Shown: positions 3,417-13,554, counted from the first letter of the stretch. The stretch: DNA of 64,000 nt from Acidimicrobiia bacterium (GCA_036271555.1 DATBAK010000036.1:1-64000), one strand, 5' to 3'. The notes: generated by a model not told the origin, from the sequence alone. Numbers and translations are program-made.

Positions 3417-4196
3417 CTACAACGTCGGGACGTAGCCCCCGTCGACCGGATAGACGTGCCCGGTGATCCACGAGGCCGCGTCGCTACACAGGAGCGTGAC
3501 GAGCGCGGTCGGATCGCCCGGGTCGCCGACGCGCGGCACGAGGTACGGCCGCGCGAGACGGGCCTCGAGATCGGGCTGCGACTCGAGCGCGGCCGCGAGC
3601 GGACCGGTCTTCATCGCGCCGAGCGCGACGCAGTTGACCGTCACTCCCGACGCGCCGACCTCCGCGGCGAGCCCGCGACTGAAGCCCATCGCGCCGGCCT
3701 TCGCGGATCCGTAGATCACCTGCATGCGCTCGCCGCGCCGCCCCGCGTCGGACACGATCGTGACGACGCGACCCCAACCGTTGCGCGCCATGTCGCCGAC
3801 GTACGCGTGGGTGACGTGCAACACCGCGCCGAGGTTGAGGCGCATGTCGGTCTCCCAGTCGTCGGGACTGGTCTCGATGAACTTCTTCAGCGCGAAACCG
3901 CTTGTGGGGATGCCCGCGTTGTTGACGAGGATGTCGACGGGACCCGTCTCCTCGCGCATGCGCAGCACCTTGACCGGGCTCGTGACGTCGGCCTTCACGG
4001 GGCGCGCGCTCCCTGGCCCTTTCGCAGCCTCCGCGACCGCGAGCGCGCGCTCTTCGTAGATGTCGTTGACCCACACCGACGCGCCCGCGCGCACGAACGC
4101 CGACACGATCTCCGCGCCCACGCCGTTGCCGCCCCCGGTGACGAGCGCGGTACGCCCGACGAGGTCGATCGTGTATTCGGATCCCCCGCCACTCAC
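3417..4196 (-). CDS. SDR family NAD(P)-dependent oxidoreductase
   Basis: A classical short-chain dehydrogenase of 259 residues, cytoplasmic and Rossmann-fold. Visible motifs are the cofactor glycine motif TGGGNGVG (residues 20-27), the NNAG motif in VDILVNNAG, and the catalytic YxxxK (Tyr162, Lys166) preceded by a Ser in the expected position. The C-terminal part (ITGHVYPVDGGYVPTL) is the usual SDR end. The substrate cannot be told from sequence. It starts with GTG 4 bp after the rnj stop codon, so the two are probably co-transcribed. Functional link to RNase J is not obvious; this SDR replaces nothing known in the conserved rnj-ftsK cluster. Confidence 0.9.
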   Translation of the reverse strand: MSGGGSEYTIDLVGRTALVTGGGNGVGAEIVSAFVRAGASVWVNDIYEERALAVAEAAKGPGSARPVKADVTSPVKVLRMREETGPVDILVNNAGIPTSGFALKKFIETSPDDWETDMRLNLGAVLHVTHAYVGDMARNGWGRVVTIVSDAGRRGERMQVIYGSAKAGAMGFSRGLAAEVGASGVTVNCVALGAMKTGPLAAALESQPDLEARLARPYLVPRVGDPGDPTALVTLLCSDAASWITGHVYPVDGGYVPTL

Positions 4197-6491: not shown

Positions 6492-7619
6492 TCAGGCGAC
6501 GGCGCGGTCCTTCGCGACCTCGTCGAGCATGGCGTACTCCTCACCGGTGTCGGTCCAGTCCTCGAACTGGATGACGCCGAGCTCGGTGAAGCGCTCGCGC
6601 AGCCAGCCGTCGCCGGCGTCGAGCAGACCGAGCTTCTTGCAGTTCGGCACGATCTTCGAGAAGAGCAACGACTGGAACACCGCACGGTCGGGCGCCTGCA
6701 TCACGAGCTTCGTCGCCATCTTCACGTCGACGCCCATGCGGTCCCACACCTCCTGCTGGAGGAACCGGTCGCGCATGCGCACCGCGGCCTCGAACGCGAA
6801 CTCCTGGCGCTCACGGATCTCGCTCGCCCCGAGGCCCGCGTAGTACTCCTTCAGCGAGAGCACGCCGAACGCGACGTGGCGCGCTTCGTCGCTCATCACG
6901 TAGCGGAGCAGCTTCTTCAGCAACGGCTCGGTCGTCATCTGGTGCATGAAACCGAAGGCTGCGAGCGCGAGGCCCTCGACCATGATCTGCATGCCGAGGT
7001 ACGTCATGTCCCAGCGCGGGTCGCGAATGATGTCGTCGAGCAGCATCCGCAAGTGCGCGTTGATCGGGTAGTGACCCGACAGCTTCGTGTCGAGGTACTT
7101 CGCGAACACCTCGACGTGACGGGCCTCGTCCATCACCTGCGTCGCGCCGTAGTACTTGGCGTCGATCCACGGCACGGTCTCGACGACGCGCGCGGTGCAG
7201 ATCAGCGCGCCCTGCTCGCCGTGCATGAACTGCGAAAGCGTCCAGTTCTGCGACTCGACGCCGAACTCGATCCACTCCTTGTCGCCCCACTTCGCGAACG
7301 GCGTGCCGCTCAGGTCGAGGCCGGCGCCGAACATGCCGTCGGCCCCCGCCTGCGCGGTCGCGTTGGCGAGGACGACCTTCTCCTGGTCGACGTCGGTGTC
7401 CCACGGCAGGTCGGTCTCGCCGTTCCACTGCGACGTCTTCGCCTTCTCGTAGAGCTTCACGAGTGCGGGACGGCTGCGCTCGTAGTCCCACGTGAAGATC
7501 GTCTCGGGAGAGGAGGTCACCTCGTGGACGACGGCGTCGACGTCCTCGTTGGTGATCGAAAGGATCGCCTCGAGATCGTTGATGTCCTCGCGGCCGATCA
7601 GATCGGTGAAGTCGCTCAT
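6492..7619 (-). CDS. Ferritin-like diiron oxygenase/oxidase family protein
   Basis: A 375-residue, all-helical protein of the ferritin/ribonucleotide-reductase-like superfamily. Two DEARH motifs (Asp164-His168 and Asp244-His248) provide two ExxH pairs, and upstream Glu residues in ICTARVVE and IMVEGLALAAF complete the usual set of four carboxylates and two histidines. Substrate is unknown; AurF-like N-oxygenases and other diiron oxidases share the layout. Its ATG overlaps the stop of a TetR-type regulator gene (ATGA), so the two form an operon and the regulator probably controls this enzyme. Confidence 0.8.
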   Translation of the reverse strand: MSDFTDLIGREDINDLEAILSITNEDVDAVVHEVTSSPETIFTWDYERSRPALVKLYEKAKTSQWNGETDLPWDTDVDQEKVVLANATAQAGADGMFGAGLDLSGTPFAKWGDKEWIEFGVESQNWTLSQFMHGEQGALICTARVVETVPWIDAKYYGATQVMDEARHVEVFAKYLDTKLSGHYPINAHLRMLLDDIIRDPRWDMTYLGMQIMVEGLALAAFGFMHQMTTEPLLKKLLRYVMSDEARHVAFGVLSLKEYYAGLGASEIRERQEFAFEAAVRMRDRFLQQEVWDRMGVDVKMATKLVMQAPDRAVFQSLLFSKIVPNCKKLGLLDAGDGWLRERFTELGVIQFEDWTDTGEEYAMLDEVAKDRAVA

Positions 7620-8254
7620 GGTGTCACTCCCTGGGACGAGACGGTGGTGAGCCCGGGGACGACGAAGTCGTCGACGAGCGCGCGGACGGAGTTGGGATCG
7701 GACAGCTCGACGGTGTCGGTCGGGCTACAGAGATACGAGAGGAGGATGCGCGCCAGCCATTCGGCCGCGCGCGCGGCGTCGTCGGAGTCGAGGAAGCGCG
7801 CGAGCGCGGGTGCGACGACCCGCGCACCGGCGTCGAGGACGCGGTCGGCGCCGTCGAACGCGAGGTGGGGCAACAGCAGCTCGGGCTCCGCGAGCAGGAC
7901 GAAGTTCAGTGCGTCGTGGGCGGTGAGCCAGCGTTGCGCTTCGAGCACCATTGCGACGACCGCATCGGACAGCGTCGTTGCCGATGCGGCCGCGTGGTCG
8001 AGCGCGGCCGAGAGCGTCGCGGCTTCACGTGCGACGACCGCGCCGAGCAGCGCGGGCTTGCCGGGGAAGTACCGGTAGAGGGTGGCGCGAGAGACGCCGG
8101 CCTCGCGGGCGACGTCGTCGAGCGTGCTCTTGGAGACGCCGACGCGCGCGATACAGGCCAGGGCGGCGTCGACCAAGCGGGTCGCGGCCGGCCCCGCGGC
8201 GCCGTCCAGCCCGACCGGTTCGATCGGCGGCACGGCGACCAGCGGTTCCTGCAC
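7616..8254 (-). CDS. TetR family transcriptional regulator
   Basis: The N-terminal helix-turn-helix is clear: RLVDAALACIARVGVSKSTLDDVAREAGVSRATLYRYFPGK. The C-terminal ligand domain is of the usual length. I prefer the GTG at 8254, because GGAGG (8265-8269 on the minus strand) sits 10 nt before it; a TTG at 8263 is also in frame but would abut that sequence. It is translationally coupled to the downstream diiron protein gene. A 7-bp inverted repeat in its promoter (8304-8330) is a likely autoregulatory operator. The insertion element that follows starts only 79-87 bp upstream of the start codon. Confidence 0.9.
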   Translation of the reverse strand: MQEPLVAVPPIEPVGLDGAAGPAATRLVDAALACIARVGVSKSTLDDVAREAGVSRATLYRYFPGKPALLGAVVAREAATLSAALDHAAASATTLSDAVVAMVLEAQRWLTAHDALNFVLLAEPELLLPHLAFDGADRVLDAGARVVAPALARFLDSDDAARAAEWLARILLSYLCSPTDTVELSDPNSVRALVDDFVVPGLTTVSSQGVTP

Positions 8255-8303
8255 GGGCGGCAATCCTCCGAGCCCAGGCCGGCCGCAGCTGCGGCCAACT
8301 CTC

Positions 8304-8337
8304 TGAGACGGTAAGCCTCGTTTCGTCTCACCGTCAA
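8304..8337 (-). promoter_or_regulatory. TetR promoter with inverted-repeat operator
   Basis: On the minus strand TTGACG (8332-8337) is separated by 17 bp from TTACCG (8309-8314). TGAGACG (8304-8310) and CGTCTCA (8324-8330) form a perfect 7-bp inverted repeat across this core, the expected place for TetR autorepression. A 16-bp perfect palindrome, GGCCGCAGCTGCGGCC (8281-8296), follows in the leader. The first target-site copy of the insertion elements (8342) lies 5 bp outside the -35 box. Confidence 0.5.
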
Positions 8338-8341
8338 TGTG

Positions 8342-8349
8342 TCACGCGT
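8342..8349. repeat. Target-site repeat TCACGCGT, copy 1
   Basis: The octamer TCACGCGT immediately precedes the left inverted repeat of the first IS1595-type element. Identical octamers are at 10768-10775 and 13441-13448. IS1595-family insertions usually make 8-bp target duplications. Confidence 0.85.
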
Positions 8350-8362
8350 CACAACGAGTCAC

Positions 8363-8387
8363 TTGCCACACCCAACCCGGCTACCCT
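8363..8387 (+). promoter_or_regulatory. Putative passenger promoter, element A left end
   Basis: TTGCCA (8363-8368) lies inside the left inverted repeat and TACCCT (8382-8387) 13 bp further, 8 nt before the GTG of the passenger gene. The 13-bp spacing is short for a canonical promoter, but the same 13-bp geometry recurs at the left end of element B. Confidence 0.4.
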
Positions 8388-8395
8388 ACTCCGGC

Positions 8396-9343
8396 GTGGG
8401 TTGGGCACGGTTCGTAGGTAGATCGGTGCGGACCGGCTGGTCGTGGCTCGCCCAGGTTCTCGATGGCATGGGCAGGGTGCTCCTGCTGCTGTTTCTTGTC
8501 GGAATTGTCTTGGCGCCCCCAGTGGTGATTAGCCACGGAGGGCACCACCTGCTCAGCGGAACACTCACGCTCGCGGGCCTGGCCTTCGTGCTGCTCGTCG
8601 CGTGCTTCTCGATCGGGGCGTATCAGATTTACAGCGACGACCAGGCGAGCGTCACTCGCCAACCGCCGGACGATCAGGTCGAACTGAGCTTCACGCCTTG
8701 GAATGTCCTGGGCGTATGCGCCTTTCAGGTCACCAACGACGGCCATACGGACTGGTTCAGCGCCAGTTGGGTCGACGACCTTGATTTGCGAGACGACGTG
8801 CATTGGGATGCGATCGCGTCAGGGTCGAAATCGAAGGAGCTGGGGCACGCCTGGCTTCCGATTCCCGAACGTCGGTTGGTGCCCGGAGAGGTCAAGCGAC
8901 TTTCTGTGCGCTTCACCTCGCGCAGGCATCGGCCACTCGACGTACCGATCGAGTTACGGCTCACGCTCCTGGGCAACCGTCAGGTCCGACTTGCCGATGG
9001 ACAGTGGCCCGAGCAAGACGAGGACTGGCGTCGAGACGTGAGCGCGCTCCTAGCGCGCCTGCGTGTGTTCCGTGAGAACTTCGACAAGATGTCAGGGACG
9101 GCCAACCTGACTCCGACCGCACCCGACCGGCTTTACGAAGCGCTGGAGAAGGAAGTCCGTGACTGCGCGCCTGTCGGAATGAGATTCCTCGACAGCTTCC
9201 GCAGCACAATCAAGCTGCTGGACGGCCGGTCAGATAGCCAGAGCCGGATGCCCGCGATCCGCGCCATCGCGTTCAAGCAAGAGTGCGATAGAGCGATCGG
9301 ACGGCTAGAGCTGGGGCTAGCCGAGCCTGATGAGGAAGCGTGA
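8396..9343 (+). CDS. IS passenger: two-TM protein of unknown function
   Basis: A 315-residue protein when begun at the GTG at 8396; the frame is open further upstream but would start inside the target-site repeat. Two membrane helices lie near the N-terminus (about residues 29-47, VLLLLFLVGIVLAPPVV, and 55-75, LTLAGLAFVLLVACFSIGAY). A predicted beta-rich cytosolic region follows (VELSFTPWNVLGVCAFQVTN to IELRLTLLGNRQV), then a helical C-terminus. I do not recognise a family. A -10-like TACCCT 8 nt upstream suggests a leaderless transcript. Its stop codon lies 1 bp from that of the convergent microprotein gene. The passenger of element B has the same restored length and the same two-TM layout. 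Confidence 0.75.
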   Translation: MGWARFVGRSVRTGWSWLAQVLDGMGRVLLLLFLVGIVLAPPVVISHGGHHLLSGTLTLAGLAFVLLVACFSIGAYQIYSDDQASVTRQPPDDQVELSFTPWNVLGVCAFQVTNDGHTDWFSASWVDDLDLRDDVHWDAIASGSKSKELGHAWLPIPERRLVPGEVKRLSVRFTSRRHRPLDVPIELRLTLLGNRQVRLADGQWPEQDEDWRRDVSALLARLRVFRENFDKMSGTANLTPTAPDRLYEALEKEVRDCAPVGMRFLDSFRSTIKLLDGRSDSQSRMPAIRAIAFKQECDRAIGRLELGLAEPDEEA

Positions 9344-9344
9344 G

Positions 9345-9464
9345 CTACTCGCCGCCGTCGCTGTCGTCTTCGGAGTCGTCGCCGACGCCGAGCAGCACGC
9401 GCATCACGTCTTCGGGATCGCCTTCGATGTTGATCGTCTCGTTGATGTCTTGCTTGGGATCCAC
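9345..9464 (-). CDS. Acidic microprotein (MDPK family), element A
   Basis: A 39-residue acidic protein starting MDPKQDINE and ending in DDSEDDSDGGE. It is clearly homologous to the 49-residue product at 11763-11912 in element B: the shared pattern is M-D-P-K-x-D-x-x-E-x-x-N-x-E-x-D-P-x-D-x-x-R-x-x-L, and both end in an acidic tract with DGGE. The GTG start is preceded at 7 nt by TAGCCT (9472-9477 on the minus strand), which overlaps the stop codon of the upstream small membrane protein gene. Conservation between two diverged elements, in the same convergent position, argues that it is a real gene. Function unknown; it could bind a basic partner. Confidence 0.72.
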   Translation of the reverse strand: MDPKQDINETINIEGDPEDVMRVLLGVGDDSEDDSDGGE

Positions 9465-9474
9465 GGCTTCAAGG

Positions 9475-9726
9475 CTACGCCCCACTGGACGAGCGTCGTC
9501 GCCGCCGCCGATCCGAGACGACCGCGTTCACCATCGCAGCAACGAGTGCGCACAGAAACAGTACGGCGGTGAGGTCCTCGTTGATCTGCGCAGCGATGAG
9601 CGTTCCGCCGACCAGGACCATTGGCAGGCCGACCCGGAATTCGACGCCCCGCCGCTCTTTGGGTGCCGCGAGGGAGCGCGCTACCACGAGGGCTATCAGC
9701 GCGGCGCCGACGAGAATGCCGATCAC
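9475..9726 (-). CDS. Small membrane protein in element A
   Basis: An 83-residue hydrophobic protein with two likely helices (IGILVGAALIALVVARSLAA and LPMVLVGGTLIAAQI) and perhaps a third (TAVLFLCALVAAMVNAVV), ending in a run of six Arg residues. The GTG start lies 6 bp downstream of the transposase stop codon, so the two are probably co-transcribed. No counterpart is found at the same place in element B, where a different 98-residue membrane protein is encoded on the plus strand. Function unknown. Confidence 0.6.
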   Translation of the reverse strand: MIGILVGAALIALVVARSLAAPKERRGVEFRVGLPMVLVGGTLIAAQINEDLTAVLFLCALVAAMVNAVVSDRRRRRRSSSGA

Positions 9727-9732
9727 GGCTTC

Positions 9733-10719
9733 CTATCGGCCGTTGATGAGCGGCCGGTAAGAGAGTCGCCGGCCCGTCTGGCCCATGAGCCGCGCCATGC
9801 GCTGAGTATCGCTGAGCTTCCGAGTGGAGAACCGGAAGTCGAACTCCGCGAGGTAGCGGTCGAGGTGCTCCGCGCTGATCCGGTGGTGCGTTCCGTCGAG
9901 CGACCGCTTCAGCTGCGAAAAGTAGTTCTCGGCGCGGTTGCTGGTGATGTCGCCACGGACGTACTCGCCGCCAGCGTGGTACACGGCGTCGTGTCCGCCG
10001 CCGAACTGGTTGCCGATGAAGTTGTAGCGGTTCGACTCGTCGGTCATGAGTCGCGAGTCGCGTACGTCGACTTGGCGCGCGATCGCGTTGTAGAGGTTTT
10101 CGCTGGTGATCTTCGCCATGACCTTCGACCGCGCCTCGCCCGTCTCGCGGTTGACGAGTGTCAGCACCGGAGTCTTCTCGGGGATGATGCGCTTGGACGG
10201 CTTCGCGTCCGGGCTGAGCGTTCCGCGGATCGCACGCGACTTGCCGCCGATGTAGGCCTCGTCGGCTTCGATCGTGCCGACCATCATCGCGACGCCCTTC
10301 GGGTCGCGCTTCATCGCCTCGCGGATGCGGTGCATCATGAACCAGGCCGTCTTGGGCATGAGGTCGTACTTGCGCTGAATCTCTCGCGCGGCGACGCCGT
10401 TCTTGGACGACACGATCTCGAAGACCACGAACAGCCAAGTGGTGAGCGGGATCTTGGACCCGTGGAAGATCGTCCCGACCGTGACCGTGAACTGGCGACG
10501 GCACGCCTTGCACTTCCAGACCCGCCGTTCGCTGACCTTCCCGCGTCGGGTGGTGCGCCCCGCCTCAGCCTTCGGCGTCAGGAAGTAGTGCTTCGCCGTG
10601 GACTGGCAGTGCGGGCAGACGGGGCCCTTCGGCCACCGCAGCTCCTCCATGTATTCGTACGCAGCGGCCTCGCTGGTGAGGCGCTTCTGAAGGGCGGGGA
10701 TTGAGGTGCGCTGGGCCAT
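9733..10719 (-). CDS. IS1595 family transposase, element A
   Basis: A 328-residue transposase of the IS1595 (ISXO2-like) group. The N-terminus has a helical segment and a zinc ribbon (CPHC near residues 36-39, CKAC about 40 residues later), followed by TVGTIFHGSKIPLTTWLFV, a helix-turn-helix-like region and the DDN-type catalytic core: GTIEADEAYIGGK, LMTDESNRYNFIGNQF and ITSNRAENYFSQLKR. It appears intact, ending LSYRPLINGR. The ATG at 10719 is preceded by TATACT at 6 nt; a further in-frame ATG lies at 10743 within the inverted repeat region. About two thirds of residues match the element B transposase, so the elements are relatives and not copies. Confidence 0.93.
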   Translation of the reverse strand: MAQRTSIPALQKRLTSEAAAYEYMEELRWPKGPVCPHCQSTAKHYFLTPKAEAGRTTRRGKVSERRVWKCKACRRQFTVTVGTIFHGSKIPLTTWLFVVFEIVSSKNGVAAREIQRKYDLMPKTAWFMMHRIREAMKRDPKGVAMMVGTIEADEAYIGGKSRAIRGTLSPDAKPSKRIIPEKTPVLTLVNRETGEARSKVMAKITSENLYNAIARQVDVRDSRLMTDESNRYNFIGNQFGGGHDAVYHAGGEYVRGDITSNRAENYFSQLKRSLDGTHHRISAEHLDRYLAEFDFRFSTRKLSDTQRMARLMGQTGRRLSYRPLINGR

Positions 10720-10725
10720 GAACCA

Positions 10726-10754
10726 AGTATATGCCACACCCATGGGTTTGGCAA
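10726..10754 (-). promoter_or_regulatory. Transposase promoter embedded in right inverted repeat, element A
   Basis: On the minus strand TTGCCA (10749-10754), inside the inverted repeat, is 17 bp from TATACT (10726-10731), and the transposase ATG follows after 6 nt. Spacing is canonical and the transcript would be leaderless. Confidence 0.7.
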
Positions 10755-10767
10755 GTGACTCGTTGTG

Positions 10768-10775
10768 TCACGCGT
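10768..10775. repeat. Target-site repeat TCACGCGT, copy 2 (shared by both elements)
   Basis: This single octamer separates element A from element B and is the right-hand duplication of A and the left-hand duplication of B. It implies that one element inserted into a target-site copy made by the other. Confidence 0.85.
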
Positions 10776-10788
10776 CACAACGTGTGAC

Positions 10789-10813
10789 TTGACAAACCAC
10801 GGATGAGTACGCT
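10789..10813 (+). promoter_or_regulatory. Putative passenger promoter, element B left end
   Basis: TTGACA (10789-10794) lies in the left inverted repeat and TACGCT (10808-10813) 13 bp further; a GTG start follows after 6 nt. The TACGCT-6-start arrangement is shared with the microprotein gene of the same element. Confidence 0.45.
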
Positions 10814-10819
10814 CTGTTC

Positions 10820-11766
10820 GTGGGCTCCAAGGTGTCGCTTTACTGGACGGCGGTACGGCGACACTGGACCTCGGTCCTAGTGACCTGGGGTACAGGCCTT
10901 GGCCTCGCCTTCGGGCTGAACGCTGTTGGCGTCGTCAAGCGATGGCCGTGGTGGGCGATCGCGGCGCTACTCGTGCTCGGACTGTTCGTCGCTCAGTTCC
11001 GCGCGTGGCGTGAGGAACACGTCGCTCACGACGACTTGAAGGAACGGCACGACTACCTGAAGACCAAGCATGACGAGGTTGTGGCCAGCCATGCAGCGAC
11101 CGTGCAGTCACTTCATGAGCGACTCGACAAGCGCCCGGTTCACGACCTGCACGAAACGAACCTCCGTGCGAGCGTCGACACACTGAAGGCCTCGATCGAG
11201 CGCGGCGCCGTACCGCGCTATGGGGAACCGGATCGCTTCGTACTGCGCGAAGCGTTCGAAGCCCACTTCGCTGACTGCGCCGAAGAAATCAAGGCTTACC
11301 GGGACGCTTCGGCTCGGGAGAAAATCGCTGAGGACGTATGGACGAAGAACTTCGACGACGCGATCGTCGTCCACGGGCTCGATCAGCCGCCGCTGCACGC
11401 GGCCGATCTGCGAAATGTCCTACTCGCCAGCGCGAAGAAGGCCATCTTCGCCGAGAGCGGTCGGGAGCGCGAGGACGCGCTCCCGCGCTGGTGGCATCCG
11501 AGCCGCGACATGGGTGCGGATCTACGCGAGGAACGGCGCATGTTCCGCTTTCCGACGGCGCGCTCACTGACGATCAGTTTGAAGCGATCAAGGCGAAACT
11601 AGACCAGGCGTTCACGGAGATGACCGAAGGTCACGGCGTGACCGCTTGGCGAGCCGCCCTTTCCGAGCTCTTCGAAGCCGCTGCGGACGCCTCAACAGTG
11701 CTTGAGCGCGCCCGCGATCGGGTGCTCTATCAACGCGCCGACTGCTCGCAGTGTCGGGATGGTTAG
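10820..11766 (+). pseudogene. IS passenger two-TM protein, frameshifted
   Basis: The first frame runs from GTG 10820 and stops at 11602 after a nonsense-like tail. From about 11550 the sensible reading continues one frame over (LSDGALTDDQFEAIKAKLDQAFTEMTEGHG) to a stop at 11766. Restoring one base in the run GCTTTCCG near 11547-11552 gives a single 315-residue protein, the same length as the element A passenger. Two membrane helices lie at about residues 17-40 and 42-60 (WAIAALLVLGLFVAQF), followed by a long charged, coiled-coil-like helix with heptad Leu/His/Lys and a helical C-terminus. A sequencing error cannot be excluded. No family recognised. Confidence 0.65.
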
Positions 11767-11912
11767 GCGGGCTCGATGTTTACCTCGCCGCCGTCTTCGT
11801 CGTCGCAGTCGTCCGACTCGTCGCGCGGTGCCATGTGCAGGAACGCGCGGATCAAGTCGATGGGGTCGGCTTCGCTGTTGACCCGTTCGTCCATGTCGCG
11901 CTTGGGGTCCAC
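11763..11912 (-). CDS. Acidic microprotein (MDPK family), element B
   Basis: A 49-residue protein beginning MDPKRDMDERVN, with DPIDLIRAFL in the middle and an acidic stretch ending DEDGGE, then NIEPA. It shares the N-terminal and acidic-tail pattern of the element A microprotein. The GTG start follows TACGCT (11919-11924, minus strand) by 6 nt. Its stop codon overlaps that of the convergent passenger gene by 2 bp, reproducing the abutting layout seen in element A. Function unknown. Confidence 0.72.
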   Translation of the reverse strand: MDPKRDMDERVNSEADPIDLIRAFLHMAPRDESDDCDDEDGGEVNIEPA

Positions 11913-12029
11913 GGCCCGAGCGTAGGCCCCTGGGGGGTGCGGGTCTCGCGAAGGCTCCGTGGTCCGTCTTCCAGAGGAGCTGCTCGACTGACGCTCAGGT
12001 CACGAGCCGTCAGGCCCGATAATTGGGCC

Positions 12030-12326
12030 GTGGGAATGAGCGCCGACGATTCCAACGACCGGGACACCGCCGAGCCCGGCTTGTCGCTCATGCTCGGCTC
12101 ATGGTCAGCGCGAGATCTGAGGCGCGCCTGGCTCTTGGGCGTCGCGCTCAGCGCGCCGGTCGGATTGGCGATCGGATTGTTCTTCGGGCCGTACACGGCT
12201 GGCGGCGGACTACCGGGCGCGGCTGCGATCCCCGCACTCGGTTTTCCACTCGCCTGGAGCGGGATTTGCGGCCTCGCGTGGCGAGACCAACGCCGACAGA
12301 AACGATCGCGTCGTCATCTGACATGA
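12030..12326 (+). CDS. Small membrane protein in element B
   Basis: A 98-residue protein with two probable helices (LLGVALSAPVGLAIGLFFGPY and LPGAAAIPALGFPLAWSGICGLAW) and a basic C-terminus. The GTG at 12030 is preceded by GATAAT (12018-12023) at 6 nt, the same leaderless spacing as other genes of these elements; an ATG at 12036 is the alternative. It has no counterpart in element A in this position and is not recognisably related to the 83-residue element A protein. Function unknown. Confidence 0.55.
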   Translation: MGMSADDSNDRDTAEPGLSLMLGSWSARDLRRAWLLGVALSAPVGLAIGLFFGPYTAGGGLPGAAAIPALGFPLAWSGICGLAWRDQRRQKRSRRHLT

Positions 12327-12439
12327 AGCGGCAGTCTTCCCGCGCGTCGCGTCGGTGTCTACCGTCCGGTGAGCGGCCGGTAGCTCAGTCGCCGGCCCGC
12401 GGTCTGGCCCATGAGCCGGTTCATCCGCTGAGTGTCGCT

Positions 12440-12491
12440 CAGCTTCCGGTAGTGGCTCAGTTTGATCAAACTGAGCCACTACCCAGCTTCC
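12440..12491. repeat. 36-bp perfect palindrome with 8-bp direct repeats
   Basis: Positions 12448-12483 form a perfect palindrome whose half is GGTAGTGGCTCAGTTTGA. It is flanked by CAGCTTCC at 12440-12447 and again at 12484-12491. It interrupts the transposase gene of element B: removing 44 bp (palindrome plus one octamer) restores an end that reads LSDTQRMNRLMGQTAGRRLSYRPL, matching element A. This is what two joined 18-bp terminal inverted repeats of another insertion sequence, with its target duplication, would look like. Confidence 0.85.
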
Positions 12492-13392
12492 GCGTGCTGA
12501 ATCGGAAGTCGAACTCGGCCAGGTAGCGGTCCAGGTGTTCCGCGCTGATCCGGTGGTGCGTTCCATCAAGCGACCGCTTCAGTTGCGAGAAGTAGTTCTC
12601 CGCGCGGTTGCTGGTCACGTCACCGCGGACGTACTCACCGCCCGCGTGCCACACCGCGTCGTGCCCGCCAGTGAACTGGTTCCCGATGTTGTCGTAGAGC
12701 TTGGACTCGTCGGTCATGAGCCGCGAGCCGTCCGGGTTCACCTGGTGGTTGATCGCGGAGTAGAGGTTGTCGCTGGTGACGCGCGCCATGACTCGGGTCC
12801 GCGCTTCGCCCGTCTCACGGTTCACCAACGTCAGCACCGGAGTCTTCTCGGGCTTGATGCGCGGCGACGGCCTCGCGTCCTTGCTGAGCGTGCCGCGAGC
12901 AGCGCGGGCCTTGCCGCCGATGTAGGCCTCGTCGGCTTCGATCGTGCCAACCATGCGCGTCGCAGTGGGGTTGCGCTTCATGGCCTCACGAATCCGCATG
13001 GTCATGAACCACGCCGACTTCGGCGTCAGGTCGTACTTGCGCTGCACCTCACGGGCCGAGACGCCGTTCTTGCTGGCGCACATCTCGAACAGCACGAACA
13101 GCCACGACCGAACCGGGATCTTGGAACCGTGGAAGATCGTCCCGGTGAGCGCCGAGAACTGCTTGCGGCACTCGCGGTTCTTGCACTTCCAGACTCGCCG
13201 CGGCGACTGCGCGCCGGTCCGCGTGGCGCGCGTCCCGGTCCCACTGCGAGGCGTGAGGAACACAACCACCGTCGAATCACAGTGAGGGCACACCGGCGAG
13301 TCGCCCCACCGAAGCTCTTCCAAGAACTGGTAGGCCGATGATTCGTCGGTCACACGTTTCGCCAGAGCCGGGATCGAGAGGTGCTGCGCCAT
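12466..13392 (-). CDS. IS1595 family transposase, element B, 3' truncated by insertion
   Basis: A 308-residue product with the same zinc ribbon (CPHC, CKNREC), FHGSKIPVRSWLFV segment and DDN-type core (GTIEADEAYIGGK, LMTDESKLYDNIGNQF, SNRAENYFSQLKR) as the element A enzyme. The reading frame runs into the palindrome and stops after KLGSGSV. Without the 44-bp insertion it would continue about 28 residues to a TAG at 12359-12361. The catalytic core is complete, so activity is possible but uncertain. The ATG at 13392 follows GAGAAT by 6 nt. Confidence 0.9.
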   Translation of the reverse strand: MAQHLSIPALAKRVTDESSAYQFLEELRWGDSPVCPHCDSTVVVFLTPRSGTGTRATRTGAQSPRRVWKCKNRECRKQFSALTGTIFHGSKIPVRSWLFVLFEMCASKNGVSAREVQRKYDLTPKSAWFMTMRIREAMKRNPTATRMVGTIEADEAYIGGKARAARGTLSKDARPSPRIKPEKTPVLTLVNRETGEARTRVMARVTSDNLYSAINHQVNPDGSRLMTDESKLYDNIGNQFTGGHDAVWHAGGEYVRGDVTSNRAENYFSQLKRSLDGTHHRISAEHLDRYLAEFDFRFSTRKLGSGSV

Positions 13393-13398
13393 GCCCTC

Positions 13399-13427
13399 AT
13401 TCTCGTCCCGCAGGTCTGGTTTGTCAT
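13399..13427 (-). promoter_or_regulatory. Transposase promoter embedded in right inverted repeat, element B
   Basis: On the minus strand ATGACA (13422-13427), inside the inverted repeat, is 17 bp from GAGAAT (13399-13404), and the ATG follows after 6 nt. This matches the geometry at the right end of element A. Confidence 0.55.
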
Positions 13428-13440
13428 GTGACACATTGTG

Positions 13441-13448
13441 TCACGCGT
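13441..13448. repeat. Target-site repeat TCACGCGT, copy 3
   Basis: This octamer immediately follows the right inverted repeat of element B and is identical to the copies at 8342 and 10768. Confidence 0.85.
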
Positions 13449-13554
13449 CACAGTTCTCGGCCGGGGCGAGACCTTTCGTGACCGTTGCTGGCGTCGACTC
13501 CTGCGACGTACAGTGGCGGGGCCACAGCGGTTCGCGGGCAGGGGGCACGGTCAG

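Follow-up and report, generated by a model that had tools for sequence, protein, structure and literature searches.

The zinc ribbon is present in all groups of the IS1595 family of insertion sequences but IS1016, and the inverted repeats of the family commonly, if not obligatorily, start with GG (PMC8101967); the traits given there were used here for family membership. The insertion sequence IS30 shows dual targeting, as it inserts both into near-palindromic hot spots and at sites beside its own inverted repeats (PMC9333248). The Drosophila P element and other transposons with terminal inverted repeats have a palindromic target motif which extends beyond the duplication, the motif of the P element being 14 bp long (PMC3276498). 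Members of the IS1202 family (ISAjo2, ISAba71) keep a constant spacing to the XerC side of the dif/pdif sites at which they insert (PMC10132070). In the literature that we searched, mostly without subscription papers and probably also without the founding description of the family, neither flank-based targeting nor arrays sharing an octamer are reported for IS1595.

The window, that is the whole stretch of 64,000 nucleotides of an Acidimicrobiia bacterium analyzed here, contains between positions 8342 and 13448 two IS1595-family elements in head to tail arrangement, element 1 at 8350–10767 (2418 bp) and element 2 at 10776–13440 (2665 bp). The octamer TCACGCGT is common to both and occurs three times, at 8342–8349, 10768–10775 and 13441–13448; each copy abuts an inverted-repeat end, and the middle copy is the sole spacer between the elements. 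This arrangement and the two element lengths had been given in a preliminary description of the locus and are confirmed. The octamers are exact at both edges of both elements, as in an 8-bp target duplication. Taken alone, the octamer is no rarity (5 matches in the 64-kb window, 8.9 expected), and it is its placement at all four element edges which is not a chance feature. The true repeat unit is 16 bp long, namely TGTG-TCACGCGT-CACA or TGTGTCACGCGTCACA, and is found at 8338–8353, 10764–10779 and 13437–13452. At the outer borders its outer four bases are native flank (TGTG at 8338–8341 on the left, CACA at 13449–13452 on the right), and at the inner borders they are the elements' own ends (CACA.../...TGTG). 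The whole 4.68-Mb assembly has three exact copies of the 16-mer, all at this array. A chance origin was ruled out, as the 16-mer is found only here in the genome and such arrays recur elsewhere.

Both elements were rightly assigned to the IS1595 family in the preliminary description. The transposase of element 1 (336 amino acids, 9733–10743, minus strand) and that of element 2 (12466–13434, minus strand) carry the catalytic domain DDE_Tnp_IS1595 (PF12762, E values of 2.1e-30 and 7e-33, above the cut-off) as well as the N-terminal Zn_ribbon_IS1595 (PF12760, E values of 1e-15 and 3.1e-11). The Pfam search returned the IS1595 transposase domain only, with no assignment to the IS30 family. The family likeness extends to the 8-bp duplication, the terminal inverted repeats and the presence of extra genes, passengers being carried by some zinc-ribbon groups. 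Of the 20 end bases 19 are paired in element 1 (ends CACAACGAGTCACTTGCC) and 17 in element 2 (ends CACAACGTGTGACTTGAC and CACAATGTGTCACATGAC). In contrast to the usual GG these ends begin with CACA; starts of the CCTA and CGGA type were likewise seen in the IS1595 family members that we surveyed. The two transposases are 74% identical, so that about one quarter of the positions differ and not one third as previously estimated. On the DNA level the elements align over the transposase gene only (segments of 77% and 83%), and a segmental duplication, which had already been dismissed, was ruled out for lack of any DNA similarity beyond this gene.

We propose, with a probability of about 0.7, that two IS1595-family elements inserted successively at one preferred target, and that this target was chosen by bases flanking the octamer which match the elements' own ends. 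The transposase would not read the octamer but would prefer palindromic flanks outside of it, here TGTG-N8-CACA, and the preferred flanks would equal the bases at the element's own termini. A first insertion would duplicate the N8 and leave two junctions, each with a native flank on one side and an end of the element on the other. As this end equals the flank, each junction would again read TGTG-N8-CACA, and a second, related element could use either junction in register, giving rise to the third copy of the octamer. The earlier suggestion that one element went into a copy of the target created by the other is probably right. From these sequence comparisons we infer that it is the transposase which reads the flanks and that the insertions were sequential. 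Possibly element 2 is the older one, its repeats being less well matched and its transposase gene being broken.

Relatives were gathered from public genomes, and inverted repeats flanked by 8-bp repeats served to define the element borders. Once duplicates and false detections had been taken out, the survey comprised 149 IS1595 insertions with 8-bp duplications; L039, L042, L254, L272 and an erroneous pair within L103 had been dropped as non-elements before any statistics, and the element of L103 was defined by hand. The surveyed elements are mostly remote relatives, with CACA ends only in the elements of the window, L098 and L103. The 149 insertions have 137 distinct octamers, and TCACGCGT occurs only at the window; it follows that the octamer is not the recognised feature. 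The preliminary description had envisaged either sequence-specific targeting of TCACGCGT or attraction to related element ends. The nonrandom target choice stands and an attraction to end-like sequences is supported, whereas the octamer as the recognised sequence is not, the signal residing in the bases outside. It had further been argued that other copies with unrelated octamers and no tandem arrangement would speak against targeting; unrelated octamers were indeed found, yet the tandem arrangement recurs (L078 and L172, see below). The finding is more general than first stated, with the specificity lying outside of the octamer.

For single insertions we compared the flanking bases next to the octamer with those at the start of the element itself. 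Among 134 such insertions the flanks match end bases 1–4 of the own element at a rate of 0.351, compared to 0.279 upon permutation among elements (z 6.7), and the mutual palindromy of the flanks is 0.353 compared to 0.260 (z 6.0), whereby the z values are guides since the permutation leaves the kinship of elements and hosts in place. Shifted positions, which control for composition, gave an own-end match of 0.269 for the same 134 insertions. The rule had been derived from the first 87 insertions, and the 47 fetched afterwards served as a hold-out; these alone gave p ≤ 0.001 (z 3.4) for the own-end match and p ≤ 0.005 for the palindromy. On average the flank effect is modest. In the group with CCTA or CCCA ends the flanks read CC in 16/16 cases and CCT in 15/16, two of the 16 being element ends inside the L172 array; all eight flanks in the GACAT-ended group have CA at positions 4–5, and for the GG- and CGG-ended groups the flank match is weak or absent. 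Flank stems of at least 6 bases occur at 6 of 138 insertions (0.9 expected). A palindrome beyond the duplication, as described for the P element, is hence also seen in the IS1595 survey; the P element is, however, eukaryotic and unrelated, and PMC3276498 does not say that its motif copies the ends of the element. At eight loci (L041, L049, L077, L190, L221, L234, L253 and L263) the octamer forms the loop of a split inverted repeat, for example cccctcc-TTCGATAA-ggagggg, and the insertions L058 and L082 lie in T-runs behind apparent terminator hairpins.

The target of the array is the site directly upstream of a tetR-family gene (7616–8263, minus strand), which adjoins an AurF-like gene. The insertion is adjoined by a conserved block at 8305–8341 (minus strand) with the sequence CACA-TTGAC-N2-TGAGAC...GTCTC. 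Thirty tetR homologues of the order have TTGAC, TGAGAC and GTCTCA in common in their upstream regions, and GTGAC-N4-GACAC stands just before in most of them. The arrangement TTGAC-N2-TGAGAC...TA..GTCTCA is highly conserved across the order (L319–L348; 8305–8341 in the window). Judged by its sequence the GAGAC/GTCTC inverted repeat may be a TetR operator, and the upstream motif is possibly an activator-like operator before the promoter, perhaps of the CRP type TGTGA-N6-TCACA. An empty site had been predicted, and we looked for it at orthologous loci: L324 (genome G011) reads AAAGTG-ACACGGGA-CACATTG with a single octamer. In a genome of the same genus (L103, G001) a 1167-bp IS1595 derivative is located exactly at the tetR site, with the left flank ATGTG-ACACGGA and the right flank ACACGGGA-CACATTG. 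In a third genome of this genus (L098, G008) an IS1595 element, cut by the contig end, terminates at the same ACACGGGA and faces the opposite way to that of L103 relative to tetR. The orthologous site is thus occupied in three genomes (window, L098 and L103) and empty in others, and the octamers at the occupied sites are each genome's local native sequence.

Two further complete arrays have an octamer shared three times, and each of them pairs two diverged elements. At L078 two IS1595 elements stand head to tail with three copies of AGCACTGG, their transposases being 73.6% identical; at L172 (Methyloligella halotolerans) two elements of opposite orientation have ACTTTATT at 3967, 6705 and 9653 and transposases of 85.4% identity. 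In two further cases, L050 and L281, the octamer is directly followed by the end of a second element; a third copy of the octamer was sought at both loci and not found, and these cases count as one-sided. Given a survey of some 150 insertions and genomes that run to millions of bases, chance would not be expected to place elements so exactly side by side. The left flank of L127 was also considered as an adjacent element end and was rejected when no partner was found. A search with the exact pattern of back-to-back consensus ends separated by 0–30 bases gave no hit either in viral contigs or in a set of 385 genomes belonging to one class; this pattern is too strict for diverged ends, and the negative result is therefore no evidence against arrays.

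Six of the 149 insertions (L050, L078, L194, L199, L204 and L259) abut a dif/XerCD-like sequence, CATAA-N6-TTATG, in a fixed register: three bases separate the octamer from CATAA, and the last three bases of the octamer overlap the 11-bp Xer arm. When 9 of 10 matches are demanded, the six hits all fall at offset 3, the remaining 39 offsets being without a hit (about 0.1 expected). This resembles the fixed-distance insertion of the IS1202 family, which, however, has a TnsB-like transposase and a 5-bp duplication and inserts 5 bp from the XerC site, whereas here the duplication is 8 bp long and overlaps the arm. The array L078 is located at such a dif-like site, and the flank there does not match the element ends. 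End mimicry is not needed in this case because re-use of the same host dif-like site suffices.

Several other explanations have to be weighed. That TCACGCGT is itself the recognised target, as its three copies at the element edges might suggest, is refuted by the survey, and the relatives at the same tetR site have ACACGGGA instead; we regard this as practically out of the question. The exact triple repetition of the 16-mer could mean that the target duplication is 16 bp and that the elements start with AACG. This is very improbable: TGTG and CACA are native in the empty relatives, and relatives have ends whose alignment takes in four more bases and leaves a duplication of 8 bp. At L057 and L059, where the ends are unlike the flanks, the repeat comprises just 8 bp, and both flanks were present at every empty site seen. 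A further objection concerns the three occupied tetR sites, which would not indicate repeated targeting if an array had been inherited at this site from the family's common ancestor. Element 1 has diverged from the L098 element (73%) to about the same extent as the neighboring host genes have (73%), which fits vertical inheritance; yet the opposite orientation of the L098 and L103 elements, the clean empty site with one octamer in the same-genus relative L324 and the agreement of the octamers with each genome's native sequence make it an unlikely account.

The geometry of the arrays fits insertion beside a resident inverted repeat and also fits the re-use of a host site. According to the former explanation, which resembles the behavior of IS30, an incoming transposase bound to its own ends would recognise the resident inverted repeat and cut exactly 8 bp outside of it, whatever the native flank. 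The recurrence of arrays with exactly 8 bp between the elements, the related ends of the partners and the known insertion of IS30 beside its own inverted repeats (PMC9333248) are in favor of this. The window elements differ from IS30, however, in their transposase family, and the tandem dimers of IS30 consist of joined copies of a single element, whereas here two diverged elements each have a complete octamer on both sides. Moreover, such attraction alone explains neither the own-end match of the native flanks of single insertions nor the motif already present in the empty tetR site, and all three complete arrays are located at sites with a recognisable native determinant. We consider this mechanism possible but not the probable one. 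Alternatively a strong host target, be it a bound regulator, Xer proteins or a hairpin, could attract insertions repeatedly, the similarity to the ends being incidental. The dif-like sites at L078 and L050 and the tetR site hit in three genomes would be in line with this; the CCT flanks of the CCTA-ended group at unrelated loci and the own-end signal in the permutation would remain unexplained, and we find this account rather doubtful. Our preferred reading is still target choice by flanks that match the element's own ends.

In a wider and clearly more tentative form, for which the odds are against us, IS1595 transposases would generally read target flanks with the specificity of their own ends; the ends of each lineage would define, and be shaped by, host palindromes such as activator-like operators, dif-like sites and hairpins, which serve as safe havens where diverged arrays accumulate in register. 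A curious triple repeat would thereby lead to a testable rule for a large family of insertion sequences, namely that targets are chosen by end-mimicking flanks and not by the duplicated octamer. If true, this rule would explain arrays of diverged copies, would allow insertion sites to be predicted from an element's ends and would account for the clustering of insertions at operators, hairpins and dif-like sites. Caution is called for as well, since neighbors with a common target duplication need not be one element duplicated.

Each element carries a passenger ORF on the plus strand, that of element 1 (8381–9343, start codon uncertain) with predicted hydrophobic segments and that of element 2 (10820–11602) by DNA unrelated to element 1; searches of both with Pfam and PADLOC gave no match. 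Beside these larger passenger genes there are similar short acidic ORFs (NIEGDPEDVMRVLL, NSEADPIDLIRAFL and NIEGDPADVLRALF): that of element 1, NIEGDPEDVMRVLL, lies at 9345–9464 (minus strand) and resembles ORFs in element 2, near 11770–11910 (minus strand), and in L103, before the right end. The transposase gene of element 2 is broken by a palindrome region at 12440–12491, in which a perfect 36-bp palindrome, GGTAGTGGCTCAGTTTGATCAAACTGAGCCACTACC, at 12448–12483 has 8-bp direct repeats, CAGCTTCC, on both sides; it cuts off the C-terminus of the transposase, and the remaining frame is found at 12368–12451. The palindrome has the appearance of two transposon ends that directly abut each other. 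An IS1595-type element with GGTAGTG ends is present at L195, and the genome of the window itself has a 547-bp element (L314) with ends as in the 36-bp palindrome and the 8-bp repeats CGGCTCTC.
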